DNA of 64,000 nucleotides from Xylogone sp. PMI_703 (lineage: Eukaryota; Ascomycota; Leotiomycetes). The stretch lies in assembly GCA_021399445.1 (NCBI GenBank), contig JAJTUQ010000003.1, positions 3,162,001 to 3,226,000 of the forward strand, read 5' to 3'. Shown here one piece after another: positions 16,757-58,845 of the stretch (within the stretch, counting starts at the first letter, position 1; every line of letters starts with the position of its first letter). The notes beneath the pieces were generated by a model, which did no database searches, was not told the DNA's origin, and saw nothing but the letters and a program-made list of their open reading frames with translations. The position numbers were made by a program, and so were the translations under genes.

Positions 16757-18313
16757 ATGTCTTGGATGGATCTATTTCGTAGAAAAGATGAGAACGCAAG
16801 GAATGCCTGGGGATATCAATTCCAATGGACTCCACAGCATATGACATCTGAACAATTGCATCCGTTGAAGTTTTCATACGATACTCTGGCCGATCAATGC
16901 TTAGGTGATCTAGACAGGATCTCACCTCCGTCTAATGCTGAGTTACCGAGGAATCGTCCCAGGAATAATTCGCTCGAAGGAAGAGCATTACCTAAAAGAG
17001 ACCTCTATGTATTGCTCCGAGACAATGCTTCCAAGTATGAAAGCCTTGCAAAGCTCTGGGAGGAAGTGAATACTATCCCAGAATGGGTTGACTGGGATCA
17101 AATTGCGAGAGGCCAGGAGGTCTTCTACAGGTACGGAGCGGCGGCATTAACGGGTGTGAGCGCTATATTCTTTCATATTCCAGAAATAGTATGGGTTTCT
17201 TCAATATGGTATTAACCTTAGCTTCTAGCTCTGTTACCAGTCACTTCTGGGAGGAATGGGTGCTGCCAGAGTCACTGAAGTTCTCTCACGTACAGGAGGG
17301 TTCTCCACAGATGTTGCAAGGCGCCGGCTGTACGAAACAACTCAGCATATCCTCCAAATAACCCAATCGCTTGATTCAATCAAGCCTGGTGGTGCAGGGC
17401 ACCAATCCTCTATCAAAGTCCGCCTCTTACATGCTGCAGTACGAAGAAGGATTCTAAAGCTAGCTAAAGACCGGCCATCCTATTTCAACGTTGAGGAACT
17501 TGGGATTCCCATAAATGATCTGGACTGTATTGCAACAATATGTAGCTTCTCATCGACTCTAATTTGGATCGGTTTTCGGCGACAAGGCATCTTCTTGCGG
17601 AAGCAAGAGATCATAGACTACATCGCACTGTGGCGCCTGGTAGCACACTACGTCGGTACGCCTCCCGACTACTTCTCAACTCCCGAAAAGGCAAAAGCAA
17701 TCATGGAATCAATTCTCATCTCGGAGATCCACCCTACGGAGACGTCGAAAATTCTCGCAAACAATATTATTCTCTCCCTCCAACGTCGAGCTCCAACATA
17801 CGCGTCAAAGGACTTCCTGATTGCTGGTGCGCGATGGCTCAATGGGAACGAGCTCGGCGATAGTCTTGGTCTGGAGCGGCCAAGCCTCTATTGCTGGGCA
17901 CTTGTTGCGGGGCAGTGCATCTTTTTCATGTTCGTATGCTACATGAACAGGTCCATTCCTTACTTAGATCGGCGGCATATAAAGGTGCGTTGTTTCCAAG
18001 AAGATTAATTAGGCCATATATAAGGGAAGAACTAAATATGTATTGTTCATAGCTTCTTAGGAGAGTCTTCTACGCCATGATCGTGGAGAACAAGACAAAT
18101 GGCTTAGGCTCGGAGACAGATTTCGAGTTCAAGTATGTCCCTGCCTTACAACTAACTACTGAGCCAGGAACGTATGAAAAGTCCGACGACACATGGTCAG
18201 ACGTGGAAAAGAGAAATCTCCGGGCCTTTCTTATCGCAGTAGGGATCGTGGGCATCATATGCTGTCTGGGATTGCAAACAGCGGTTTATATATCACATCG
18301 GTTATGGAGGTAA
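16757..18313 (+). CDS. DUF2236 / MpaB-type oxygenase family membrane protein
   Basis: Exons 16757-17188, 17229-17984 and 18053-18313, 482 residues. The segment VFYRYGAAALTGVSA, then LLGGMGAARVTEVLSRTGGFS, then RRRLYETTQHILQ is typical of the MpaB/rubber-oxygenase (DUF2236) catalytic domain. So are LIWIGFRRQGIFLRKQEIIDY and WRLVAHYVGTP further on. The family includes the ER-bound oxygenase of mycophenolate biosynthesis and bacterial latex-clearing haem oxygenases. The substrate here is unknown. Hydrophobic stretches occur near residue 140, near 390-415 (CWALVAGQCIFFMFVCY) and near the C-terminus (AFLIAVGIVGIICCLGL), so it is probably an ER membrane protein. The first intron, at 40 nt, is very short; it was chosen because frame and family sequence continue exactly (PEI then LCYQSLLGG). 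Confidence 0.88.
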
Positions 18314-26321: not shown

Positions 26322-28308
26322 CTACATAGAGGTAATTAAATTATTTCCCAGATCTCGCAATTCATTCTTCTTCAGTTTTCCACTCCCCGTAATAGGAAAT
26401 GCCTCGCAAACTCCCTCGTCACCGAGCCAAAAGATGTGAATGGGAATCTTGTGACGTCCAAGCGTAGCACGAACCCAGTCCTGTAGTTCTACATCCGAGG
26501 GTCTAATGCCATTTGCATCTCGATCATGCGCAACGAACGCGGCTGGGATTTCTCCATATTTACTATCTTTCAGACCGACCACTGCGGCTTGTAATACTAA
26601 TGGATGCTCAGCGAGGCGTTCCTCGATCTCTAAGGGGTAGATGTTTTCTCCACCTGCATTTCAAAAGGGTTAGTAAAACTGCGAATGGAAGGAAAACGGG
26701 TTGGTTAATGAAACTTTAACTTCACCTCTGATAATAATGTCCTTGATCCGGCCAGTAATTCTGCAAAACCCCTTTTCATCTAGGGTAACCTCATCACCTG
26801 TCTTCATCCACAGAACTCCATCTTCATCCTTCACCATCACTTCGTTTGTCTTTTGAGGGTCGTTAAAATATCCAACTTGTACATTATATCCAGAGACCCA
26901 TAATTCACCAGGAACACCTCTAGGTACCACCTCATATTTCGAGTTGATGACCTTGGCGGTGGTATGAGGTAATATTCTGCCCACAGTTGAGAGCTTTTCT
27001 GTGATGCCATCGTCCACTGATGTCATAAAACTGGCAGGGGAGGTTTCCGTCATTCCTGGGTAAAAGGGGTTAGTAAGTTTCTAGATAATGTCTTTGAGAA
27101 AGTATACCATAAGTGATAGTAAGATCTGGCAGCCCAAACATCTGTTGTAATTGCTCCATCAGGGCCTGCGAAACTGGCGAACCTGCAGCAATGCCCGTTC
27201 TCAGCCGTATAGTACCAAGATGCTTCCTATGTCGAAGCTGTTCAAGCTCAGCCAGGAACATTGTGGGGACGCCATGGAGGCCGGTGCAATTTTCCTTGAT
27301 AACGATATCTAGGACTGCCACAGGATCGAATGTCTGACTTGGTAACACGAGAGCAGAGCCGTGAGTGATGCATGCTAGAAGACCTAGCACCAGGCCGAAA
27401 CAATGAAACAGTGGTGGAGGACAGCAGATTCTGTCAACTTCTGTCAATTTCATTCGAGCACCTATGAAGCGCCCGTTGTTTATAATATTGCTGAGGAAGT
27501 CAACCAAAAATTCAAAATTTGTTGAGGAGATGGTGGTAGGGACAGTCTTACTGGTGTGTCAGCATCGCAGCTTTGGGTTCTCCCGTGGTACCGCTTGTGT
27601 ACTGAAGGTTGCACACGTCGTGAGAGCCAACAGACCTCATCCTCTCCTCAAGGAGCTCTGTAGACTGTCCATTCCCTTGCATGACAAACTCATCATAGGA
27701 GGTAAGAGCATCAGAAATTGGTTGTTCATTACTTCGAATGAGAACTACATCTTGGAGATAGGGCAAAACTGGTTTCCTAGCTTCAGTGGTAGATGTGACG
27801 AGTTCGATGTGTGGTAGGATATTTTTACTCCCAATATTGGTAGAAGTAAACAGCGCGCGACATCCTATCATGAAAAGAAGGCCTTAGCTACAGGATACTC
27901 ATTACAAGTTTCGTTTGGAATTGAATTGTGTCTGCTTCTCAAGCGCTTCATACCTGAGTGCTCTAGAGCATTCAATAATTCTGTCGGGGTATATGTGTTA
28001 TTGAGTACGACTACTATTCCACCTATGATGGTTGTGGCAAAGAAGATTTCAATATATCGTTCACAGTTGCCAGACAATATGCCAATTCTGTCGCCAGGCC
28101 GAATGCCTATCGCGAGCAAGCCCTTGGCAACAGTCTGGCTCCGCGTATAGAGTTGCTTGTAAGTCAGACGTACGCCAGTCCATGATACGATTGCGTCTCG
28201 ATGAGGATACTTTGTTGATTGTTGTTCCAATAGTTCACACAGTGACAATTGGAGCAAAGGGGGCTCCGAAGGACCTTGAACGAAAGATAGGGAGGCAGGT
28301 GCCATCAC
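26322..28308 (-). CDS. ACSF2-like acyl-CoA ligase (AMP-binding enzyme)
   Basis: Exons 28308-27954, 27864-27552, 27490-27108, 27055-26726 and 26653-26322, 570 residues. All adenylating-enzyme motifs are present in order: the P-loop-like YTSGTTGEPKAAML, GMTETSPASFM, the TGDEV loop, GRIKDIIIRGGENIYPLEIE, and the A10 lysine in TGSGKLKKNELR. The MTETSP and VGRILPHT segments resemble human ACSF2 and medium-chain acyl-CoA synthetases. It should convert a carboxylic acid, ATP and CoA to acyl-CoA, AMP and diphosphate. There is no C-terminal SKL-type peroxisome signal (it ends ITSM). It is co-directional with the MFS gene and 4.6 kb from the PKS start, so a role in feeding or processing the polyketide is plausible but unproven. 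Confidence 0.92.
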
Positions 28309-30096: not shown

Positions 30097-32015
30097 CTAA
30101 GCAATCTCTTCTTTTGATAAGCCTGTTTCAGTAATAGTCTTCTCTGCAATAGACGAAGCGGAACCACTTCGTGGATCTTTTCCCTTCTCGATAAATGCTT
30201 GTGAGCTCTTGGAATCTCTGTCAAGGCTGATGTTTTTAGACGTAAAACTCGCAACTGTGGCGACGGCAGCGAAAGATGCCAGAACAATAAAGATGGTGTT
30301 GATTGACTCGGATAATATCCTGCGGTATGCGTTTTGGACAGTTTCAGGAAAGTTAGCAATAAGGCTTGCGGTTTGTTCGGCTTGAAGGTTGCTGAGTCTA
30401 TATTGGCTTGGTATGACGCCACGTGCATGGTATGCTGCAACTTTATGGTTCCACTCATTCTGAAAGATCGCACCTCCTATGGCAACCCCAAAAGCTTGTC
30501 CGAGTGATATTGTAAATGAGGACATCGCTGTTGCCATCGGTACATCCTCATCTAACTGAGAGGCTTGGACGGCAACCATTCGGCCTGGGAATAAAGCGCC
30601 CCCACCAATACCATAGAGGACCTGGAACCCGTATTGGATTCCTCTATTGGAATCTGGACGAAGTAAAGAGGTCAACCCCAAGCCTACAGAAAGTAGAACT
30701 AGGGCAACCGAGTTTATTGTTCGAAAACGCTTAGCTTTGGCGATAACAAACCCTGCAATGGCTGCAAAGGGTGGTACTGTGGAAGTGCCAGGCAAAATAT
30801 CCACAGCAGCTCCCAGAAGTGATTTTCGTTTGGTGACCAAGAACTAGAGATTGAAAGATTAGTTCCAATTACGAAGCAGCGTATCTCTTGCTAACTCACA
30901 TAAAGTATGAGGTAATATTCCATGGCCCATAAGGTAACACCAAGGACAAAAGATGTAAAATATGCTGAGAGAGATGTCCTGTTACCGAATATCCTGAGAG
31001 GCACCATTGGACTTCGAGTCAAAAATGCTTCATACAAAAAGAAGCCTGTAGTCCCCACGACGCCAATTATTAAGGCAGATAATGTGTTCGCAGAAGCCCA
31101 TGGGTATAAGACGCCTCCACTGGTGACGCCAAAGAGGATCGAGATAAGTGATCCTGTGAGGATAACCATGCCCGTCCAATCCGCATTCTTGATATTCTCC
31201 CTGAGCGACACACTCGAAGGTTGAAGATTCAGAAACTTCAGTATACCAAGAAGCGCCGGTACACACACGGGAAGGTTGATGTAAAACACACTACATTCCA
31301 GCAAAAAAGAGGTAATTGTAAGTTTCGAGTAAACGATGAGATAGAAATTGAGATCTTACTTACAGACGCCACGTGGATCGGCTTGCAATTGCTGCACCCA
31401 TAACATACCCAGCTAAGAGGGCTACAGCGCTCACCAAGGCCATCAGACCAATATATTTACCGCGTTCGCGCAAGGAGACCATATCAGCCACGATTATGGT
31501 TACCAGGGCATCATTTCCTCCAGCCCCAAGCCCCTGAACCTATATAATTAAGACACAGCAATCAGTAATCACTCAGCATAAAGGTAAATCACCAGCAAAG
31601 TTTGGACTATTGGACTGTATATACTTACAACACGTGCCCCGATGAGCCAGGAAATGTCTTGCGCAACAGCACATAGGAGACTTCCCAGAGTGAATATTGA
31701 AAGTGCGACCAAAAGGCACACTTTGCGCCCAAAGACCTCTGAGAGAGCGCCATAGACGGGCTGCACAATAGTCTCTGCAAACAAAAAGCCAGTACCACAC
31801 CAATAGGCCTGATTACTGGTGGCATCCAATGCATCTGCAATAGCTGGGAGAGCAGCCGCAATGATAACGGTATCAAGGATAGAAATGAAGTTGCATGCGC
31901 ACAGAGACACGAAGGCCAGCTTGAATGCCCTCGATTTCTTAGTCGGTGCTTCCTGTTCCTCCCGACTTTGGCCTTGTTCGAGCTGCTCCCGCGGTATGCT
32001 TTCGGCGTCTTCCAT
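30097..32015 (-). CDS. MFS multidrug/toxin efflux transporter, DHA2 (14-TM) type
   Basis: Exons 32015-31629, 31539-31364, 31290-30900 and 30843-30097, 566 residues. Typical DHA2 landmarks are seen: FISILDTVIIAAALPAIADAL in TM1 (motif D1-like), a motif-A loop in GALSEVFGRKVCLL, VVQGLGAGGNDALVTIIVADMV (motif B region), TWRLVFYINLPV (motif C neighbourhood) and a large predicted loop followed by further TM helices. It probably exports a small molecule by proton antiport at the plasma membrane. It is divergent from the TLC-PKS gene, sharing an 882-bp spacer, which suggests shared regulation. The substrate is unknown. Confidence 0.94.
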
Positions 32016-32897: not shown

Positions 32898-35800
32898 ATG
32901 GCTGCTCCAAATATTTCGAATCTTGGGTTACCACATGCTTCCATTCCACCATGGGCGCCTCTGAGGGAAGTGTTCCAGCCAATTGCCAACTTTCTCTCTC
33001 TTTCTGCACTTCCACTTCATATTCACCACATATTACTCATGGCAATTTTTTACTATATCGCGTATAGATATGTATTACGATACATATCGAGCCGATTATT
33101 CCCAAGGAGGTACCCAAAACTATCCGGCAGATTGAAGTTGGACTGGGATCTCTGTGCTGTGTCAATTACACAATCAGTAATAAACAGTACCATAGCAATC
33201 GTGTTGCTCCTTACAAATGATCCGCAGAATGATATGACTTGGCAAGAGAGGATTTGGGGTTATCAAAAATCAACTGGTCTTGCATTAGGGTTGTGTACCG
33301 GCTATTTCCTCTTCCATTTGTTCGAGACAGTAATACACGCCAAGATACAAGGCACGATCTTTGTATACCATGCGATTGCTTGCCTTTTGCTAACCGGCAT
33401 TGGATTTGTAAGAGTTATCACGCTCTTCTAAAAGTGCATACGGCATAGTTTGCTAACTTTCCCCAGCGCCCATTGGCACTTTGTTATACCCCAGTGTTTC
33501 TTATGATGGAAGTCCCTAATATCTTTCTCAATATACAGAAGTTTTTAGATAAGAATAACTTATACGATTCTCAAATCCGGACTCTCAACCGCTACGCTCT
33601 GATTACTACCTATCTTCTTTTCCGTACCATCCCTGGAGCTTACTATCAGATCCTGATATCTAGAGACTTCCTCAGAGCAATCAGGGAAGTTGACCCCAAG
33701 ATCCCAGCATCGTACCTGCTTACACCCCCAACTTCACGGATCACATCGGCGGATTCGGCGATGCTCTATAGTGTCCCGCCGGTGCCGGTTCTACTCGCTG
33801 CAGTTCAGGTTATTGCATTGACAGCATTGAACGGACAGGGGCTCTACTGGTTCTCACAAATTTGGATGTATACAAACTATTCAACCACAATGAGCAGCCA
33901 ATCGACATCGGAAAAATCGCAAGCTGCACTTAGTTATGAGAAGCCTAAGACGCTTCTTTCCGAAACGATTGAAAAGGACGTACATTTAAGTAAGACCAGG
34001 AGCTCGCAGGAGAAACCAGACCAAACCATGCCTATTGCTATCATTGGAATGAGCTGTAGGTTTGCTGGAGATGCAACATCCCCGGAAAAACTATGGGAGA
34101 TGTGTGCTGCAGGGCGTAATGCTTGGTCTGAGATACCTTCTACAAGGTTTAATCAGAAATCTTTCTACCATCCCAATGGTGCTAGAGAAGGTAGTGTAAG
34201 TACGATCTGCTTAGTTCGAACATCGAATTCATGCTAATGAGATTTTAAGACAAATGTTCGAGGAGCCCATTTCTTAAAGGAGGATATATCCCTTTTCGAT
34301 GCTACTTTCTTCAATGTTACTCTCGAGGAAGCGAAGGTAAATACTATGTGAAAAAGAAGCTTCTAATCCATGTTGGATAATAGTTGCTAACCACATAATT
34401 CTGAGAACAACAGGCTATGGATCCCCAGTTAAGATTGCAATTGGAATGCACTTATGAGGCCCTTGAGAATGGCAAGTCATTGCTAATGAAATATTGAATT
34501 GATCTGCTAACACCTGGTGTAGCTGGTATACCGATTGATTCCCTGGCGGAAACACCAACCTCGGTATACACCGGTATTTTCGCAAGAGATTATCACGAAA
34601 GCTTATTTAGAGATATTGAGACTCTGCCAAAATATTTCAACACTGGAAATGGAGCCGCTATGCACTCCAATCGTATCTCATACTTTCTTGATCTCAAAGG
34701 TCCCAGTATGACTGTGGATACTGGATGTTCGACAAGTATCGTGGCATTGCACTTAGGCTGTCAGAGCTTACGCACCGGAGAGTCAAAAATATCAATTGTG
34801 GGTGGAAATAATTTAATACTTAATCCGGATATGATCACTGCAATGAGTAGTTTTGGGTAAGTGTGATAATTCTCTTCCACTGAGCCGATGCTGATGCCGT
34901 AATACAGTTTTGTCTCCCCTGATGGCCGATCTTATGCGTTTGATCACCGGGCATCGGGATACGGTCGTGGAGAGGGAGTTGGCTGTGTAATTCTCAAGCC
35001 TCTAGAAGATGCGTTGAGAGATGGAGATCCCATTCGCACAGTTATTCGACACACAGCTCTCAACCAAGATGGAAAAACTGTTGGAATAACAATGCCTAGC
35101 CAAACAGCCCAAGAAGCACTGTTCAGATCTAGTTACGAGGCGATCGGGCTCGATCCAGCGGAAACGCCGTACGTAGAGTGTCATGGTACTGGAACACAAG
35201 CGGGTGATCCTCTAGAAGCTGGGGCAGTGGCATCAATCTTCGGGAAGAACAGATCTATTAGTAACCCGGTCTTCGTAGGCTCTGTTAAGACCAACATTGG
35301 CCATCTAGAAGCTGGAAGCGGTCTTGCTGGTATCGTCAAAGCAGCAATGATTCTAGAAAAGGGAATGATACCGCCATCAGCAAATTTCGAAGAGCCCAAT
35401 TCGAAAATACCACTAAAAGAGTGGAAAATAAAGGCGAGACATATTTGTTTGTTCTATAGTTAAGAAAAGCTAACAAAAACCTTATAGGTACCAAGGAGTC
35501 TGGAACCCTGGCCTTCTAATAGCCCTAGGCGGGTCTCTTTAAATAGTTTTGGCTATGGTGGAACAAATGGGCACGTGATTATGGAGCACGTAGACCAGTA
35601 TATAGGTCATGAAAGAAGTCGTACGTGGTTTACAAAGCCCCTAAATATAAGTTGTGTCTAATAAGCTCCATAGGGAACGGTACTGCAGTAAATGGTAAAA
35701 GCTCCTCTGGTCGACGACGGGTGTTTACCTTCAGTGCGAAAGATGAGGAAGCTAGCCTAAGAATGATTTCAAATATGAGGACTTATTTAAAAGAGCACAC

Positions 35801-38800
35801 GGACATGGATAAGGAAGTATTCCTAGACAATCTAGCTTATACACTGGGACAAAGGCGCACCGCATTTCCTTGGATGATAGCTACCACCGCAACTTCGCCA
35901 AAAGAATTGATCGATGCTCTGGAAGATAAGAGCCTCAAGCCTGGACGACGCCAGGAGAACCTTAGAATTGGATTTGTTTTTACCGGTCAGGGTTCTCAAT
36001 GGTATGCTATGGGACGTGAACTGCTCGATACGTATCCCGTCTTTAGGGACTCAGTTCTCCAAGCAGACAGACATATGAAGACCCTGGGGGCTGATTGGTC
36101 AATCATGGGTACGTTTAGTGGAATATCTTATTACATGTGAGGAGACTAACAAGTATAAGATGAGCTTCGAAAGGATGCAAACACCTCACGAGTCAACTAT
36201 GCAGTATACAGTCAACCTATCTGTACTGCTCTCCAAGTGGCATTAGTTCGACTTCTTGCATCCTGGGGCATAACGCCGGTTGCTGTTACAAGCCATTCTA
36301 GTGGTGAAGTTGCTGCTGCCTACGCAGCAGGTGCGCTGACATTAGAATCGGCCATTACGGTCTCTTACTTCCGTGGCTTTGTAACCCAAAACATCCAGAA
36401 AAATTCGCCAGGTCTCAAGGGTGGAATGATTGCTGCTGGCCTTTCCCGAGAAGAAGCGGAATCCTACATTAAACGGGTATCATCGGGCAAAATTGTTGTT
36501 GGTTGTGTCAATAGTCCAGCCAGCGTGACTATCTCAGGAGATATTCAAGGAATAGACGAGATAGGGAAACTATTAGAAGATGACAATGTATTCGCTCGTA
36601 AGCTTCAGGTCGATGCGGGCTATCACTCGCATCACATGGAAGTTATTGCGAAGGATTATATTGACCTTCTGCATAAACATAACCTCAAGACTGACAAGTG
36701 GCCCGGTGATATAGTTTACTCCTCATCCGTTACAGGGGACTATATTGAGTCTTCTCACGTGTTTGGACCAAACTATTGGGTTGAGAACATGGTCCGCCCA
36801 GTCCTATTCACCGATTCCCTGCGCAATATGTGCGTAGGTCCAGCAAATAAACCTCAGCGTCAAAGTGGATCGTTCATCGATACGATTATCGAGGTTGGAC
36901 CTCACAGTGGATTAGCCGGTCCAATCCGCCAAATCCTCAAACTACCAGAACTGGAAAAGATGCCTGTGGCATATACCTCATGTCTAGTTAGAAAGCAAGA
37001 TGCGGTAAAGACGATACAAGAAATGGCATGTACCTTGCTAACCAAAGGATATCGTGTCAATCTAAAATCACTGAACTTCCCTTATGCTCAGCCCAATCTT
37101 AAAGTTATTACGGATTTACCCTCGTATCCATGGACTCACAAGCTACGTCACTGGCACGAGTCACATCTCAACAAACGACACCGGTTGCGGACTGGAGGCC
37201 CTCATGACCTTCTCGGAGTTCCAGCAATAAACTCAAATCCACTGGCGCCTACATGGAGACATCGTCTTCGAGCGGCGGATGTACCATGGGTGCGAGATCA
37301 TTTAATTCAGGGTTCGTTCATTTACCCAGCTGCAGGATACATTGCTATGGCAGTAGAAGGCTTCCGGCAGTCAGTGACTCCTCCCGGTCAACACATCTCA
37401 AATTTCAAACTACGAGATGTCGATGTCATCAGTGCTGTGATGATCCCTGATACACCAGAGGGCATTGAATTACAGCTATCCCTTAAACCAGCAAGTGACC
37501 GGCTTCCATCTTCTCAAGGCTGGTATGAATTCAATGTCTATTCAGTTTCGGAAGAAGATAACGACTCTTGGACCAAACACTGTGCCGGGTTTATTACTGC
37601 CGAATTTAGTTCTGCAGCGGATGAGTCCGGACGCAATAACGCAACAAGCTCTGATCCGAGAATAACTGAGGCAATCAACACCTCAGGGGCAAACTTCCAA
37701 AAGCAGGATCCAAAGAAAGTGTATGAATACCTTCGCTCAGAAGGAATTCATCACGGACCGATATTCCAAAATCTCGAAGAAATCCGTGTTGGTAAGAATA
37801 AATCGCTTGCAACTGTCCGCATTCCAGACACAGCATCCGTTATGCCATATAATTATGAAAGTGATCATATAATCCATCCTGCAACTCTAGATACAATTCT
37901 CCAGGCTATATATCCAGCCATTCCAAAAGAAGCCACGGAGCACGGCAACACGAAATTGCCCAAGTTTTTCAAGTCCATATCACTATCTGGGAAGATCAGT
38001 AGTGCGGCAGGTGACCGGTTTAAAGTGTGGTCTGTTGTTGAAAAGGCTACAACGAAGAGCGTAATATCTTCAATCTCCGTGCTAAATGATGGAAGTGATA
38101 ATTCTGCGGTGTTGGCTGAGATTTCTGGATTTCGCTGCGACTCTATTGGATCAACATCCAATGCTGAAGAAACTGAAGAAAAGACAAACATTTGCTTCAA
38201 GATGCATTGGGATTATGATATTTCAACTGATGTGGAAAGCGCATTGAAGAGTGTAGAGCAGCAATCCCTGCTTCATACTGTCATTAACCTCTACGCCCAT
38301 AAAATCCCTGGAGCTAGATATCTTTCCATTAACGCTGCTGAAGGAACTCCAAGTGAAGCGCTGAATACGCTTAGGGGTAGCTCAATAGAAAACCCACGGT
38401 TTAGTCATTTCACCTTAACAGACTCCTCTCAAGACTTCATTGACTCGATGAGTAAGGAGTATCAAGATTTTAGTAACCTCATCAGTCTCAAAAAGTTGGA
38501 TATTGGGGCAGATATCTCGGCGCAAGGGTTCGAGAGCGGAGCCTATGACATTATAATTGCTGCTGGACTTACTAAGCTCACAGACGACAAACAGACCACA
38601 CTGACAAATATTGGTAGACTTCTAGCTCCAGGAGGAAGGGTTATTATTCCCGATGCTGTCAGATCTGCTATCAATGAGTGGCAACAACTCCTGCCAAAGC
38701 ATGGACTACGGATTATTTTCACACAGAGCACTAGATCCAACGAAGTTGCTTTTATATTGGCCGAAAAAGAGAGAGCTTATGCCTCATGGCCAGAAGTCTC

Positions 38801-41576
38801 CGTCATATACGGACCTACACCTGCTCCAGAAGAATTGGTATTCTCGGTACAGTCATCAATTGCAAATTTAACAGGTCGACAACCCACAGTTGAGGAGTTG
38901 GAGGAAATTGATGGAACGGGCAAAGTCTGTGTCATCTTATGTGAGCTGGCCAAGCCCATCCTTCATCAACTAGATTCTGGACAATTCCTTGCATTGAGGA
39001 ATCTCCTCATATCAGCAAAGGGAGTCCTCTGGGTGAGTCGAGGTGGTGCTGTCGACTGTGAACTTCCCGAGGCTAGTCTTATTACTGGTCTTCTTCGGAC
39101 TGTGAGATCAGAGAATCCTGGAAAGCGCTACGTTACTCTCGATCTCGACCCTAAACTAGACGTTTACAACACAAGCATGAGTGCTTCAATTGTCAAATTA
39201 CTTAGAGAGCTATTTGATTATAGTCTAGAAAATACTAATATGGACTGGGAGTATGCACAAAGAAACGGAGGGTTGATGATTTGTCGAGTTGTTGAGGATA
39301 CCAAGACCAATGAAAGCATCTATGCTCGTAGCCATACCTTGACCCCTGAGCTTCAACCATTCCACCAAGAGGGACGGCCGCTCCGTATGGAAGTTGGAGT
39401 TCCCGGATTACTTGACTCACTGAGATTTGTTGACGATGTTTCAATGTCAGAGCCATTACCGGATGATTTTGTTGAATTGGAACCTAAAGCATTTGGACTT
39501 AACTTCCGGGATGTTATGGTTGCTATGGGTCACCTCGACGAGAATGTGATGGGATATGAGTGTAGCGGCGTTGTTACTCAAGTTGGAAAAGCTGTGTCGG
39601 ATATCAAAGTCGGCGACCATATTTGTGCCATGATGAAGGGTCATTACGCTAACTTGGTACGCCTACCAAGTGTTAACGTTGGGAAGATGCCTAAAGGTAT
39701 GCCTTTTGATGTGGCAGCCTCAATACCTATGGTGTTTTGTACCGCCCACTATTCCCTATATGAGACTGCTCGCTTGCAAAATGGGGAAACTGTTCTTATC
39801 CATGCAGCAGCTGGTGGTGTTGGTCAAGCAGCTATTATGTTAGCCCGTCTCGCTGGTGCGGAGATATTTGTTACAGTTGGCACAAAGGAAAAACGGGATT
39901 TTGTCATTGATACTTACGGCATCTCACCTGACCATATCTTTTCCAGCCGAAACACTTCATTTGGTAAGCAAATCATGACCATGACACAGAACAGAGGTGT
40001 CGACGTTGTCCTTAACTGTTTGGCGGGAGACATGCTTCAAGAGACTTGGAACTGTATTGCTATGCTTGGACGGTTTGTGGAGATTGGAAAACGTGATATC
40101 GAGCTCAACAACCATCTTGAAATGGCCCCCTTCACACGAAATGTCACCTTTTCTTCCATCGATTTAACGTACGTGATGAAATATCGTGCACATATGTTGT
40201 CGAAGGCTCTTGCAGAGGTAATGCATTTGCTGGAATCAGGTTCAATTCACCCAGTGAAACCAATAACGGTATATCCAATCTCCGATATCGAGCGCGCTTT
40301 CAGATTAATGCAATCGGGGAAACATCGAGGAAAAGTGATTATCGAACCTCATCCCGAGGATCCTATCAAGGTTCTTCCTAAAACACGTCAGTCACAATTT
40401 AGACCTGACGCTTCCTATCTTATAGTAGGAGGCTCAGGTGGCATTGGCCGCTCAATCTCCCGATGGATGGTGAAACAAGGTGTCAAACATCTTATCCTCT
40501 TGTCCAGGACTGGACAGACCAGAGCAGTGGCTCGGCAATTTATGAGCGAGCTAAGTGAAAGCGGTTGCAATGTTGCTGTATACAGCTGTGATGTCTCGGA
40601 TGCAGGACAATTGAAGAGAGTGATAAAAAAATGTGCTGAATCCATGCCACCAATTCGTGGAGTGATCCAGGCCGCTATGTCACTGAAGGTAAAAGACATT
40701 TCATCCAGTCTTGTGGAAGTCTCTGAATCGTTAGCGCTAACAGAAATAATTAACTAGGATTCCATATTTGAACAAATGCCGTACAACTCATACGTCGAGG
40801 CCCTATACCCTAAAGTTCTGGGTACTTGGAATATCCACGAAGTTTTCTCCGGTGTTGCTCTTGACTTCTTCATTATGCTCTCATCAGCTGCTGGTATTGC
40901 AGGTAACTCAGGCCAGGCCAATTATGCTGCTGGGTCTACTTTCCTAGACGCGATTGCCCGTTACCGCGCATCAAGAGGAATACCTGGAGTTACACTAGAT
41001 TTAGGTGTCATTGGAGGTGTTGGCTATGTCTCTGAAAACAGGGAATTAGCTTCTCGACTTGAGAAGTTAGGTCATGTAGCGATAGATGAAGATAAGTTAC
41101 TAGCCATGGTGGAATCTGCCATCCTAGATCCCATACGGGATGTAGAATCCAGTCAGATCATCTCCGGACTAACAGCTGGCTTCGATTTCAGCGATTCCAA
41201 ATTCTCCCAGCTCCGTCAGAATATGGCGGCTACAACAGGTGGTGTAGGTGGCGGGCCAGCAAAAGCGGGCACCATTTCCGATCAGCTAGCATCTTCCAAA
41301 TCTATCCAGGAGGCTATAGATTTCATCATGAAAGCTATCGTCGGAAAGCTCTCCAAGGACTTCATGATATCCGAAAGTGAGATCAATATAGAAGATTCGC
41401 TCGCTGCATTAGGGGTCGACTCATTAGTGGCGGTTGAGCTAAGAAACTGGGTTATGAAACAAATGAAGGCTGATATTTCTATTTTTGATGTGCTTCAGAG
41501 TAAATCATTAACTACGCTGGCGGAGAAGATTTCATCGAAGAGCGGATATATTAACTTTGGTTCTCAAGCAACATGA
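32898..41576 (+). CDS. TLC-domain membrane protein fused to a highly reducing polyketide synthase (KS-AT-DH-psiMT-ER-KR-ACP)
   Basis: Exons 32898-33407, 33467-34195, 34250-34336, 34414-34471, 34523-34856, 34908-35433, 35488-35620, 35674-36108, 36160-40688 and 40758-41576: 2,719 residues. Residues 1-311 form a multi-pass TLC-like (TRAM/LAG1/CLN8) membrane protein, with [12 protein letters not shown] and about six or seven hydrophobic segments. The frame continues through [10 protein letters not shown] (Met312) into KS (about 357-780; Cys530, His665, His705), AT (about 890-1205; Ser984 in SHSSG), DH (from about 1286; His1318, Asp1515), a degenerate methyltransferase (about 1615-1810), ER (about 2010-2320; AAAGGVGQ), KR (about 2350-2530; Ser2490, Tyr2503) and ACP (Ser2669). 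No thioesterase or reductase end. Two introns start with GC (34472, 35434). It would make a reduced linear chain; the TLC role is unknown. The alternative is two genes, but no stop codon separates them. Confidence 0.88.
34472..34522 (+). other. GC-AG intron in the PKS gene
   Basis: The donor reads G|GCAAGT and the acceptor GTGTAG. A CTAAC branch-like site lies inside. Joining the flanks gives ALENAGIPIDS, the expected ketosynthase sequence. No GT donor is available at this position. Confidence 0.85.
35434..35487 (+). other. probable second GC-AG intron in the PKS gene
   Basis: Donor AAG|GCGAGA, acceptor TTATAG, with GCTAAC inside. The join gives [15 protein letters not shown], the usual end-of-KS sequence in fungal HR-PKS. 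Reading through meets a stop at 35461. The donor is weaker than a standard GCAAGT, so damage to a former GT is also possible. Confidence 0.7.
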
Positions 41577-44551: not shown

Positions 44552-47542
44552 ATGAAGGGAACATTAACACAGCCGGCCACAGCACTAAAGCGTGGACCGC
44601 CGGGGGAGATGCTTAGGCATCCAAAGAAGAGAAAACTGGATAGGTTACTTCCAATAGATGAACCAGGTATGCAGGATGTTACATATATATGAAAATTTAT
44701 ACTGATAGGCAATACAGATATTGGAGAGAATAATGGAGAGAATAATGGAGAGAATAATGGAGAGAATAATGGAGAGAATAATGGAGAGAGTGATGAAGAG
44801 AGTGATGAAGATGATGAAGAAGATGATGAAGAGGATGATGAAGATCCCATGAATTCTCGAAAATACCGATACCCTTGCCCTGACGCAATCGAGTTTAATT
44901 GTGATAGGCGTTTTGAGTATTCTGGCAATGCGAAGGCGCATGCAATACGTGCTCATAGAGACAAGTATCCTCAGGAATATTTGCAACTTTTAGAAAGGCA
45001 TCGAGAACGAAGCCATGCCTGGGAGAAGAAAGTTGGGAAGCGGCACCAGTGTCCTGATGCAGTCGAATTCAATTGCACAGAAACTTTCTTGTCACCTAGC
45101 AGAGCAAGAAATCATGCGATGAGACATCACAGAGAGAAGTATGCCAAGGAGCATCCTGAAGAGCTTGCTAAGCATGAAAAAGAGCGAGCAGAAAAGCAAG
45201 CAAGGGCAGCAGAGTTGGCAAAGCAGCGAGTATACAAGCCGCGAACAAGAAAGACAAAGCCTTGTCCTGGTGCAGTCGAGTTCAATTGCTCAGAAACTTT
45301 CTTTGCGCCTTGTTATGCAAGGTATCATGCGATGAGACATCACAGAGAGAAGTATGCCAAGGAGCATCCCGAAGAGCTTGCTAAGCACGAAAAGAGGCTG
45401 GCAGAAAAGGGGGGAAGGAAGGCAGCAAATGAGAAAGCAAAGAGGCTCCAAGAAGGAAAGACAGAGCCTTGTCTCGATGCAACGGAGTTCCATTGTGATA
45501 AAATGTTTTATGATCACCGGGAGGCAAGATCTCATGCAATACGGTGCCATGGGGAAAACTACCCCGAGCAACACGCAGAGCTTCTTCGAAAACAAGAAAG
45601 TCGAAAGAAAGAGGGCGACGAAAAATATCCTTGCCCAGTAGGCAAGGAATTTGGTTGCAAGAGAACTTTTACTTACCTAAACCAGGCAAATAGCCACGTC
45701 AATACATTTCATAATGGACCAACTCCATATCCGTGTCCGATGGCTCTTGAGTGGAGGTGTGGGAAAGCCTTCCCCTCAGAACAAATGGCTAGGGAACACG
45801 TGGAAAATGATCATAGTAGAGAACCAATCGCCTGTTTCATTGCAGAAGAGACAGGCTGCAATCGTCTGTTCAAAAATAAGAAAGATGCCAGATCCCATCT
45901 CAAGAAGGCTCATGGAATCAAGTTCACGGACAGCGACCCTAATGAGACACATAACGAGGGAGACGGCGAGCGCATGTGGAAGTGCATGGTTCCTAATTGT
46001 AGACATGCAGTTTCGGGAACGCGGTTGACCGAGAAGCAGTTGGATCAGCATTTTCTACTTCACAAGTGTGAAGGACATCTCAAGGATCTGCCTTCTTTTC
46101 CTGCCGAAGCCATTAATGATCTTGATCCGGAAGAGGTCAAGGAACTACACAGTCAACTGCATATCGGCGAAGAGGAGAGAGAAGAAAATGATGATGATGA
46201 GGCTCAAGGCCATCTCGCTCAGGGAGTCAAAATTTTGGGAGTAAAATTATTAGACAATTTTGAACCCCAAGCTCAATCAGACAGTGGGATAGGAAACACA
46301 GGGGTATATAGTGACCTGGAGTATATTCAAAGATGCGATGAAAACAGAACATTCCATCAACGCGGGGACCAGATTCTCGCAGCAAATATGAAATTTCGAA
46401 GTGAGTCCATTCTCTGTTCAAAATACTCAATACCTGACCATAGCTAGGACGATACTCTCAAGCGACAATTAAGTTGGGCAACTTTAAGCTCAACTGTGCA
46501 GGGCCAGAAGCCTTAGCTCAAAGTCCAGGCAGAGCATTAAGTTTCGTGGAACGTCACTGCCCACATAAGTCGATCATAACGCTTGAAACAGCGTTTTTAA
46601 TGCTAGAAACGATCACTTCCGCTTTGAAGTTCCCACCCCGGTGCGCTGCTTGTGAAGAACACCGAATGGTTATTAGAGGGCTCAAAGATAGAGGAATTCT
46701 CGCTCGTACCACAGGTGGGATCTGTGAAGAAGGGGGCTGCCTCCGGCAAAAATGGTGGATAACAAAATACTGTGCCGATCACGCAAGATACAACATGTGC
46801 GTTCAGACCCACCTCTTTAGAGACGTAAGCATTGCAGATATAAGTAATCTGGCTGATAGCTTCACAAATCAGTGGGTGATGGCGAAAGCTGCAGCTGATC
46901 GAGCCCTCATGCGCGAATTTTTGGAGCGGAGGGAGGACAGTACCCAAAGATGGGTCTGTCTGGATATAGAGACAGCCAAAAAATCGCGGCAGAGGTTTAG
47001 AGATTTGGCAGATTGGCATAGTAGACTATGCCACAGGCGAAGTTTTGGTTGATGAGTATCTCGACCATTTCTGCCCGCAGGGGTGTTATTGTAGGGGGAT
47101 AAGCCACCGATCCCCCAATATCTCACCCCAAGAACTTGGGGACTTATTCAGACGTAAGGAGATTGGGGAGTGTAACATTCTTGCATGGTGTCCCAACCGC
47201 TTCGATATGAAGCATACGCGGATTTTCCTAGCTAAAGCGGGTCTGGAGACGCTTCTGCCACCTAACGAGAAGTGCATGCTGCCAATGCATCACGTCAAAG
47301 CCAACATCACCGGTACCGCGGAGCTGGGGGCCTTGTATCCAGAAATATGCCCCGGTGACAACCTTATAGAAAATCACCACGATGCGCTAGCGGATGCACA
47401 TATGCTAAGAAATCTGATTACGAACCTGGAGCCGGCGTGGGGCGAGGGCCGCGAAAATGAGGAAAAGCGGCTGGAACTTCAACGTAAACTTCGTTCTAAG
47501 AAAAGAATCGACCGATCCTTAATTTCCGAAACAGAACCATGA
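44552..47542 (+). CDS. tandem zinc-finger protein fused to a DEDDh 3'-5' exonuclease, frameshifted
   Basis: Exons 44552-44666, 44709-46400 and 46448 onwards, with a required one-base shift at the A6 run 46978-46983, ending at 47542. About 930 residues in total. After a basic leader come (GENN)n repeats and an acidic run, then seven divergent fingers of the form C-x7-C-x12-H-x4-H (starting CPDAIEFNC, CPDAVEFNC, CPGAVEFNC, CLDATEFHC and so on) and an eighth Cys/His element. A second Cys-rich region (CAACEEHRMV...GICEEGGC) precedes the nuclease. Exonuclease motifs: CLDIET (Asp at 46963, Glu at 46969), NRFDMKHT (Asp at 47204), and HDALADAH (His at 47378, Asp at 47393), the DEDDh pattern. It would degrade RNA or DNA from the 3' end, targeted by the fingers (inference). 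As sequenced, the frame stops at 47052 before motifs II and III. Confidence 0.8.
44727..44790 (+). repeat. 12-bp tandem repeat (GENN)n
   Basis: About five perfect copies of GGAGAGAATAAT in frame, coding for Gly-Glu-Asn-Asn, passing into GAT/GAA acidic repeats up to about 44845. Confidence 0.92.
45062..45392 (+). repeat. internal duplication with 213-bp period (fingers 2 and 3)
   Basis: The stretch from about 45111 to 45180 recurs at about 45324 to 45393 with only two differences, both silent (T/C at third positions). The flanking finger sequences are also similar. It is a recent duplication of one 71-codon finger unit. Confidence 0.88.
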
Positions 47543-56343: not shown

Positions 56344-58845
56344 ATGAAGCTCTTCTCGGGCTTAATAACAGCAGTCCTCGGCAGTGCCTGTCTTTGGTCT
56401 GCTGCAAATGGTAGGAAGTCTTGATGTCCTTCCCCAGCCTCTCGCCCGACTGATTGTTGGCATCTAGCACACTCCACGGAGCGGAATCCATTGACCTATC
56501 TGACGCTGGTGGATGATCCTACGATACATACCCCGTCGCATCGGGTCCATGCGTGGTCGAAGTTTGATCTGACGTTCGACTTGCACGCTCGTAAACAGAA
56601 GATAAAATTGACGCTGGATCCGAACCACGGTGTCATCGCTGAGGGAGCAACCATATCACATCTTGCTGCAGATGGAACAGTACACTCGCACGAACCCATC
56701 AACAGAGCCGACTACCGAGTATTTAAGGGGCAGGCGTGGCTAAAGCGCGATGGATCAAAGGAATGGATGAATGTCGGATGGGCTCGCATCATGGTCCATG
56801 AGGATGGCGCCAGACCTCTGTTTGAGGGTGCTTTTAAAGTAGACGGAAACCACCACCACATCCAGATGAAGTCGAATTATATGAAAACGAAGCATGCTCT
56901 AGATCCGAAGCTGGAAGACGGTGAGGAAGAGTACATGGTCCTCTGGAGAGATTCGGATGTTGCCCCGAACTTTGGCGACTTGCACGGTGAACTGAAGAGA
57001 GATGTTGGTGAAGACATAAACTGCAATGCCAATTTATTGGAATTCAACACCAATCCGGAGCATCCGGTTTACCAGGGGGTCTTCAAGCCTGAGGAAAAGT
57101 TCTGGGGCGCCATGAGTCCTAGATCCCTGTACAGCCGACAGATCGATGGAACAACCTCTGGAAACGGTGCTGGTGTAAATCTGGTCAGCACAATTGGTAA
57201 CTCTGCTGGATGTCCAACGTCTCGCAGGGTGGCTCTTGTCGGTGTTGCTACTGATTGTACCTATACCGAGGCCTTCAATGGTAACAAGTCGGCAGCCCAA
57301 CAAAATATCATCAATGTTTTCAACACAGCTTCAGTGCAGTACGAAAACAGCTTCAACATTACTCTAGGACTGGCCAACGTTACTATTAGTGACCCAGAAT
57401 GCCCTACTGTAGCCACGGCCGCAGCTCCCTGGAATATAGGATGTAGCCAGAGCGTTGGTATCTCGGATCGTCTGAATCTGTTTTCGGGATGGCGTGGTGC
57501 GCGACCTGATAATAATGCTTATTGGACTCTACTCAGCACTTGTGCCGATGGTAGTGCTGTTGGGCTTTCGTGGTTAGGTCAGGCTTGCGTTAACACAGCT
57601 CAGGTCGCCCCCACCGCAGGAGGGGGAAATGAAACCGTTAGTGGTGCAAATGTTGTTGTGAGAACCAGTACTGAGTGGCTGGTCGTTGCTCACGAGAGTG
57701 GGCATACTTTTGGTGCGGTTCATGACTGTGATGCCTCGGTTTGTGCGAACGCAACCCTGGTAGCCGCTCAGCAATGTTGCCCCCTAAGTGCTTCAACCTG
57801 TGATGCAGGTGGTCAATACATCATGAACCCTAGTACAGGGCCAAATATCCAGATCTTCTCCCCTTGCACAGTTGGTAATATCTGTTCTGCTATAGGAAGG
57901 AACTCGGTCAATACGAAATGCTTGACGGCCAATAAAGATGTCACAACTATTACAGGAAGCTCATGTGGCAATGGAATTGTCGAACCTGGAGAGGATTGCG
58001 ATTGTGGTGGAGACGCTGGCTGTGCAGGCAACACCTGTTGCGATGCTAGCACATGTAAGTTCATCGGATCTGCCGTATGTGATCCCAGCAACGAGGATTG
58101 TTGTAATAGCCAGTGCCAATTTGCTTCGAATGGAACAGTGTGTCGGGCCAGTACTGGATCTTGTGATCCTGAGGAAGTTTGTACCGGCACAGCTGCAACT
58201 TGCCCTACTGATGTCACTGCACCAGATGGTAAGAAAACAACACTCTTGCTCCAACAGTTCACCGAGTATCCCTTTAGCTAACTTGTGTCAGGAACATCAT
58301 GTGGTAACGACCTCAATTGTGCTTCTGGTCAATGTACGTCCCGTGATCTCCAATGTAAGGTCCTTATGGGTTCATACACCCAAGGAAATGATACCTACGC
58401 ATGTTCTTCCAACGGATGCCAGATTTCTTGTGCGTCACCTGAGTTTGGTTCCAACGTATGTTATAGTATGCAGCAGAACTTCCTCGATGGAACGCCTTGT
58501 CAGGGTGGTGGGAAATGTAACAACGGACAATGTCAGGGGTCTTCCGTCGCCAAAGAGATCAAAAGCTGGATCGATGATCACAAGCCCTTGGTTATCGGTC
58601 TTGCAGCCGGCGTCGGCAGCTTGTTGATCTTAATCATTCTATCTTGTTGCATCAGCCGCTATAGGAGAAAGAGAAGAATCGCACAGTATAAGGCAGCTCA
58701 TCCACCGCAAGGATGGAATGGACCTCCTCCACAATGGACGCCTGGTGCACCTCCCCTGGCATCTAGGGGAGGCTACTGGGATAATGGCCAATGGATACCA
58801 CCGCAAGAGCAGGTATGGACGGGGCCTAGTGTTCGGTATGGATGA
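56344..58845 (+). CDS. ADAM-type membrane-anchored metalloprotease (fungal disintegrin-metalloprotease)
   Basis: Exons 56344-56410, 56468-58228 and 58292-58845, 793 residues. A signal peptide opens it (MKLFSGLITAVLGSACLWSA). A prodomain of about 240 residues follows. The reprolysin-type catalytic domain begins near RRVALVGVATDCTYTEAF. It carries the zinc site HESGHTFGAVHDC and the Met-turn YIMNP. The disintegrin domain (EPGEDCDCGGD, CCDASTC) and a Cys-rich part come next. One TM helix (LVIGLAAGVGSLLILIILSCCI) and a Pro/Trp-rich cytosolic tail end the protein. Architecture matches fungal ADAM-B-like proteins, which are secretory-pathway or cell-surface proteases; the substrate is unknown. All catalytic residues are intact. 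Confidence 0.95.

Follow-up and report, generated by a model that had tools for sequence, protein, structure and literature searches.

Is a fungal polyketide synthase that follows a TLC-domain membrane protein in the same reading frame truly joined to it, and if so, what would the membrane part do? The question is raised by a gene in a stretch of 64,000 nucleotides (nt) of Xylogone sp. PMI_703 (JAJTUQ010000003.1; parent assembly of 50 Mb in 25 contigs), which we analysed as a whole and refer to as the window. A preliminary description of the window had proposed that the gene encodes an in-frame fusion of a TLC protein and a highly reducing polyketide synthase (HR-PKS), anchored in the endoplasmic reticulum (ER). 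Our results indicate that TLC domain and HR-PKS are almost certainly one fused protein, that the TLC domain resembles a recently described type of membrane acyltransferase and that the fusion is kept in other fungi.

The TLC domain and the synthase share one open frame

Splicing of the gene (coordinates of all features in Table 1) yielded a protein of 2719 residues with no internal stops. Protein search and alignment showed that the public Xylogone sp. PMI_703 protein P0116, named 'putative polyketide synthase [Xylogone sp. PMI_703]', equals this spliced model letter for letter. According to hmmscan with Pfam, the order is TLC (residues 82-303), linker, ketosynthase (KS), acyltransferase (AT), dehydratase (DH), a degenerate methyltransferase (MT), enoylreductase, ketoreductase (KR) and acyl carrier protein (ACP); the PKS part thus holds KS, AT, DH, enoylreductase, KR and ACP in HR-PKS order. 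The PF03798 match of the TLC domain is full-length (profile positions 1-197 of 198) and scores 76.3 bits against a cut-off of 24.6.

Intron 1 (59 nt, GT-AG, 33408-33466) interrupts the TLC domain. The following exon, 33467-34195, stays open in a single frame between its 3' splice site (33467) and its donor (34196), as first described, and encodes the second half of the TLC domain, the 54-residue linker and the start of KS without a stop codon between them. The distance to KS had been put at 46 residues; it is in fact 54, counted from the end of GLYWFSQIW (residue 303, base 33865) to MPIAIIGM (residue 358, base 34028), and the figure of 46 matches a count from Met312 (base 33890). The claim that the linker holds no splice site goes too far, since GT and AG dinucleotides do occur: the pair 33868-33933 would excise 66 nt in frame and retain the fusion, and a donor-like GTAAGA is found at 33990. 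Since the public protein equals the spliced model, these candidates are unused in it.

The same TLC-KS order, for which the preliminary description had suggested a search in other genomes, was found in public protein models of two Coleophoma species, C. cylindrospora (BP6252_00193, 2712 residues) and C. crateriformis (BP5796_01023, 2565 residues). Both are named 'hypothetical protein' and have the same TLC-HR-PKS architecture, so that orthologues which are always separate genes, the outcome held to speak against a fusion, were not what we observed. Xylogone and Coleophoma both belong to the Leotiomycetes, and the fusion is present in three genomes of this class and at least two genera. P0001, a metagenomic open reading frame (ORF) on a 2056-base contig, likewise continues from TLC via the linker into KS, uninterrupted by a stop. 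The identity of its TLC piece to those of Coleophoma is 78-80%, and its linker is equal in length, 48 residues; because of this agreement, an error in the Coleophoma fusions, which are known from protein models, is unlikely.

Comparison of Xylogone and C. cylindrospora showed that only 9 of 47 linker residues are identical, with seven gap positions, between flanks that are identical at 157 of 261 (60%, TLC) and 338 of 433 residues (78%, KS); the protein starts are alike as well (MAAPN and MAAAN). A random 54-codon stretch of the same base composition would be free of stops in about 5% of cases (about 1 in 20), a figure that ignores ancestry and can serve as a guide only. Because the join is kept in other fungi, and in view of this figure, we do not regard it as a product of chance. 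A missed gene boundary was ruled out by the open frame in the window and in P0001, together with the fused public models in three genomes.

In principle, a separate TLC protein and PKS could arise from two overlapping genes or transcripts, the open frame being accidental or encoding an alternative product. The Xylogone linker does contain two internal methionines, Met304 (at 33866) and Met312, and that of P0001 contains one; the three PKS starts that we examined (P0004, P0005 and P0019) each have their own linker-like leader. Moreover, P0003 (143 residues, 2117-base contig), which belongs to the clade of fused TLC domains, ends early, 22 residues after GLYWF; an intron in the linker, or a split version of the fusion, may account for this. 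However, neither Coleophoma linker has a methionine before MPIAIIG, the join is kept across a scrambled linker, the public models are fused in three genomes, and a PKS that began at Met358 would miss about eight residues present in LovB (residue 358 aligns to 9). Separate products are therefore very improbable.

Of 2145, 2467 and 1954 candidates scored in three protein searches, 2, 114 and 3 proteins, respectively, were listed; the searches rely on shared 5-residue words, so that distant fusions would escape. PF03798 was present in two of the 114 (P0001 and P0003), and the other 112 had PF00109 without it. P0002 is nearer to a free-standing Xylogone paralogue on contig C1 (54% identity) than to the fusions (41-42%) and was not counted as one. 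No prokaryotic or viral relatives were seen among 27 and 249 pattern matches.

The TLC domain resembles acyltransferases of the TLCD/ALE2 type

An acyl-histidine mechanism of TLC acyltransferases was published only in 2024-2025, for the TLCD/ALE2 type in 2025 (PMC11919693, PMC11838012). CerS6 bears its acyl group on the first His of the HH pair and cannot do without the second (PMC11919693). TLCD1, YPR114w, FLD-1 and CLN8 are reported as acyl-CoA-dependent acyltransferases; TLCD1 acts via an acyl-enzyme, its site His117 was placed by CerS6 homology, and the D98A variant is locked as acyl-enzyme (PMC11838012). We used TLCD1, FLD-1 and YPR114w sequences translated from the DNA printed in the latter paper.

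The columns of Tyr, His, Glu and Arg were unanimous in all rows of the alignment that reach them (eight rows for Tyr and His, seven for Glu and Arg). Tyr136 of the fusion protein aligned with TLCD1 Tyr94, and the acyl-histidine position was occupied by H158 and H159 in the two readable fusions; the public model of P0118 begins inside the TLC domain, and its first half was left out of the comparison. Judging from this conservation, Tyr94, Glu145 and Arg183 of TLCD1 would be active-site residues. The Asp98 of the TLCD/ALE2 enzymes, needed for passing the acyl group on, was absent from both readable fusions, which have His140 and His141 there. The paralogue on contig C12 also has His, and the position is Asp in YPR114w, TLCD1, FLD-1, the C1 paralogue and P0002. 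A single-pair blastp comparison of the fusion TLC with YPR114w gave an E value of 2.7e-9 over 193 residues at 24% identity.

When compared by profile with two Xylogone ceramide synthases, an alignment that was weak (E 0.031, probability 1.6%) yet in register, His158 and Ala159 fell on the first and second His, respectively, and Glu185 and Asn188 likewise on the first and second Asp. The second His of the pair was likewise Ala or Gly in the TLCD1-based alignment. In YPR114w it is replaced by Gly, so its loss appears to be normal for this fungal branch. The Lag1 motif, HH and D..D (HH..D..D), is absent from the fused domain, and a ceramide synthase identity was ruled out by motif (Ala/Gly for the second His, Asn for the second Asp). 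A sequence search of the PDB with a four-row profile found no relatives of the TLC part at E values up to 10. On sequence grounds we conclude that the fused domain is of the TLCD/ALE2 (YPR114w) lysophospholipid-acyltransferase type and not ceramide-synthase-like in motif. The preliminary assignment to the TLC family was thus borne out over the full domain, while the link to ceramide synthases gave way to a resemblance to TLCD/ALE2.

With the human (TLCD1), yeast (YPR114w) and worm (FLD-1) enzymes the fusion shares a homologous TLC domain, the acyl-His position, Tyr, Glu and Arg; unlike them, it has His at the Asp98 position, is not free-standing and has its C-terminal tail replaced by linker and PKS. 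Ceramide synthases (Lag1/Lac1, CerS6) and Fum17/Fum18 share with it the first His and, as far as a poor model shows, the TLC fold; the fusion differs in having Ala or Gly for the second His and Asn for the second Asp, and none of them is fused to a PKS in the structures and papers examined.

These features bear on what the domain could still do. A TLC barrel that has lost catalysis and only serves to keep the PKS at the ER, close to P450s and membrane substrates, is an unlikely explanation, though the change of Asp98 to His in both readable fusions and the long stem of the fused-TLC clade (see below) agree with it, and several fungal pathways put enzymes at the ER (PMC9134587). A plain anchor would need neither the four of five compared positions that are kept (Tyr, His, Glu and Arg) nor a barrel core that is 60% conserved. 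A domain that binds or acylates the product for self-protection, or senses a membrane lipid, is more improbable still. The comparison would be with the ceramide synthases Fum17/Fum18 of fumonisin producers, which confer resistance and were seen in the ER (PMC9134587), but the fused domain lacks the ceramide synthase motif and protection genes need no fusion to a PKS.

Origin of the fused domain

The nearest Xylogone relatives of the fused TLC domain are two free-standing genes, L046 on contig C1 and L047 on C12, both of which share the intron after GF|RP (read by eye). They end 64 and 17 residues, respectively, after the WF of the last helix, in charge-rich tails, and the fused domains have 25-35% identity with them in the second half. 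In a tree of 8 rows and 126 columns, in which YPR114w forms a long branch, the fused TLC domains, P0001 and P0003 form one clade (support 100/100) on a stem of 1.69 changes per column. A free-standing TLC protein probably joined the PKS before Xylogone and Coleophoma split, unless the gene moved between them. A recent or Xylogone-private fusion was ruled out, as the Coleophoma KS is closer (78-80%) than other Xylogone KSs: the best three whole-KS matches at other loci of this genome have 49-50% identity, and partial matches reach at most 65%. No other listed Xylogone TLC locus lies within 200 kb of a listed KS locus, both lists being lower bounds.

Proposed mechanism

The fusion would be an iterative HR-PKS with an N-terminal seven-helix TLC barrel of TLCD/ALE2 acyltransferase type in one polypeptide. 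The barrel would be inserted in the ER membrane and its C-terminus would face the cytosol, so that the PKS would stand at the membrane surface, where malonyl-CoA and NADPH are, and would build its chain there. Anchoring at the ER is probable, and membrane anchoring, as first suggested, is a likely consequence of the fusion, given the TLC domain. Fungal secondary-metabolism enzymes are reported in several compartments, with the PKS Fum1 in vacuoles (PMC9961181) and other pathway enzymes at the ER (PMC9134587); an ER address carried by the PKS itself would therefore meet a known need.

His158 would take an acyl group from a phosphopantetheine thioester, either CoA or the protein's own ACP, as in TLCD1 and CerS6. 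An ACP-bound chain is a plausible donor because the ACP arm is the same phosphopantetheine as that of CoA and the cavity of the relatives opens to the cytoplasm and takes acyl-CoA. From His158 the chain would pass to an acceptor in or at the membrane; since the Asp98 position is His, this acceptor would not be lysophosphatidylethanolamine, or else the step has been lost. We somewhat favor the view that the TLC domain handles acyl groups, and lean slightly towards an anchored PKS with an acyl-handling TLC domain, a reading that also covers starter loading. Of the earlier suggestion of acyl transfer or lipid sensing, the former is made chemically concrete by the retained nucleophilic His, and the latter we judge less likely.

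The task that we would put first is off-loading, the transfer of the completed chain to a membrane-borne acceptor. Apart from the fusion gene, 30 window ORFs were scanned (29 of the 53 with 150 residues or more, plus a shorter one), and none was seen to encode a thioesterase, a P450 or a second acyltransferase; off-loading is preferred because the PKS has no release domain and these ORFs include no thioesterase. Taken by itself, this task is a rather doubtful proposition. More broadly, we tentatively suggest an integral-membrane PKS in which the His within the barrel may take the chain from the ACP and discharge it, as an acylated lipid or an amide, directly into the bilayer, or may load a lipid-derived starter in the same manner.

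Starter loading in the strict sense, in which a long or unusual acyl-CoA, perhaps supplied by a neighbouring AMP-ligase, is loaded onto His158 of the TLC domain and handed to KS or ACP, seems improbable to us. Non-reducing PKSs carry a SAT domain at the N-terminal position before KS, and the TLC domain is likewise N-terminal and adjoins KS. HR-PKSs, however, normally start from acetyl-CoA, we know of no TLC enzyme that uses a thiol acceptor, and the ligase may serve elsewhere or have the product as its substrate. That an AMP-ligase gene does lie nearby and that acyl-CoA is the donor of TLCD1 and CerS6 (PMC11838012, PMC11919693) are points in favor of such loading.

The PKS part and known synthases

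The motifs KS DTGCSTS/HGTGT/NIGH, AT HSSGE, DH HxxxGxxxxP, enoylreductase GGVGQ, KR GGxGGIG and ACP GVDSL were found in P0116 and P0117. In P0118 the second DH pattern, as written, was unmatched, and the S-adenosylmethionine motif pattern was unmatched in the MT region of the three fusion proteins. No Pfam domain follows the ACP, in agreement with the earlier statement that a release domain is lacking. Among the nine intron donors of the gene seven are GT and two GC; the latter lie at 34472 and 35434 (GCAAGT and a weak GCGAGA), and the public protein implies identical splicing.

Table 1. Features of the fusion gene, its product and its neighbours in the window
Feature	Position	Strand	Basis or remark
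TLC-HR-PKS fusion gene	32898..41576	+	10 exons, stop codon TGA checked
Exons 1-5	32898-33407, 33467-34195, 34250-34336, 34414-34471, 34523-34856
Exons 6-10	34908-35433, 35488-35620, 35674-36108, 36160-40688, 40758-41576		last exon includes TGA
TLC domain PF03798, residues 82-303	33141..33865	+	hmmscan; intron 33408-33466 inside
His140, place of TLCD1 Asp98	33315..33317	+	alignment of 8 TLC proteins, one partial
His158, place of TLCD1 His117 (acyl-histidine nucleophile) / first His of CerS HH	33369..33371	+
Glu185, place of TLCD1 Glu145	33509..33511	+	alignment
Arg223, place of TLCD1 Arg183	33623..33625	+	alignment
54-residue linker	33866..34027	+	in place of C-terminal tail of free-standing TLC proteins
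Ketosynthase, residues 358-734, active Cys530	34028..35391	+	hmmscan, motif
Acyltransferase, residues 893-1198	35973..36941	+	hmmscan
Dehydratase, residues 1286-1603	37203..38156	+	hmmscan
Methyltransferase-like region and HRPKS sdrA-like Rossmann domain, residues 1684-1981	38397..39290	+
Enoylreductase, residues 2042-2332	39471..40343	+	hmmscan, motif
Ketoreductase, residues 2355-2532	40410..41012	+	hmmscan, motif
ACP, residues 2640-2703, Ser2669	41334..41525	+	last domain
MFS/TRI12-like efflux transporter	30097..32015	-	PF07690/PF06609 in exon ORFs; limits approximate
AMP-binding acyl-CoA-ligase-like gene, multi-exon	26322..28305	-	PF00501 in two exon ORFs; limits approximate

The fungal HR-PKS LovB (PDB 7CPX) and the psoA PKS-NRPS (PKS-nonribosomal peptide synthetase; 9X2C) have the same KS-AT-DH-MT-enoylreductase-KR-ACP order and active-site motifs and match the fusion closely in sequence over KS-AT-DH. 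The fusion differs in having 357 residues, including the TLC domain, before KS, where the LovB chain has about eight. To our knowledge, a TLC domain does not occur in any other PKS. Carnitine-acyltransferase PKSs are HR-PKSs extended by an extra C-terminal domain, and the extra domains of these and of strobilurin PKSs are soluble. The strobilurin PKS is an HR-PKS with unusual C-terminal domains (PMC6158276). Whereas both extended types grow at the C-terminus, the extension of the fusion is N-terminal and predicted to be membrane-embedded.

The preliminary description knew of no HR-PKS with an N-terminal TLC domain, and we found none in the open-licence literature searched by titles and abstract starts, which does not prove absence: no paper turned up on the TLC domain, under this or its Pfam name, together with polyketide synthase, and none on the source organisms or on membrane-anchored PKSs showed such a fusion. 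The word polyketide is absent from a 2026 survey that includes fungal PF03798 proteins (PMC13161914).

In our view, how fungal HR-PKSs without a release domain release their product, and where in the cell they reside, matters for many clusters. As evolution has joined a PKS to a membrane acyltransferase fold, both questions become directly addressable in one protein and at one histidine. Retention of the fusion in related fungi marks it as a genuine gene design, one that suggests a membrane-integrated polyketide factory. If the proposed mechanism is true, fungal polyketide synthesis would be begun or terminated in a novel manner, TLC enzymes would have a new type of donor or acceptor, and the fusion would be the first PKS core enzyme known to us to be an integral ER membrane protein in its own right.

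Neighbouring genes and other loci

The MFS transporter gene and the fusion gene are divergent, their starts lying about 0.9 kb apart, and one of the exon-ORF matches of the transporter (PF07690/PF06609) is just under the cut-off. Further exon-like ORFs were seen at the AMP-ligase-like gene. Farther out on the flanks lie housekeeping genes, of phenylalanyl-tRNA-synthetase type at 24 kb and for thymidylate synthase at 48 kb; the gene cluster may therefore be small. A long ORF at 44693-46447, with C2H2-like repeats and a tandem ENNG-type repeat at its start, has its only Pfam match under the cut-off and is a possible regulator from its position near the PKS. Elsewhere in the window, 17229-18005 holds an ORF of the MpaB/rubber-oxygenase family (PF09995) of ER-bound oxygenases, and an ADAM-type metalloprotease that includes a disintegrin domain is spread over two adjacent ORFs at 56425-58842.

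Outside the window, a ceramide-synthase-type gene stands divergent beside a second, different TLC gene at locus L048 (2363-8392; contig C20, about 929.9-935.9 kb), followed downstream by a 495-residue ORF that resembles an acetyltransferase. A Xylogone ceramide synthase on C23 matches Lag1/Lac1 in the PDB, and with the C20 and C23 copies the genome has at least two ceramide-synthase-type genes, of which the extra copy could be a resistance copy.
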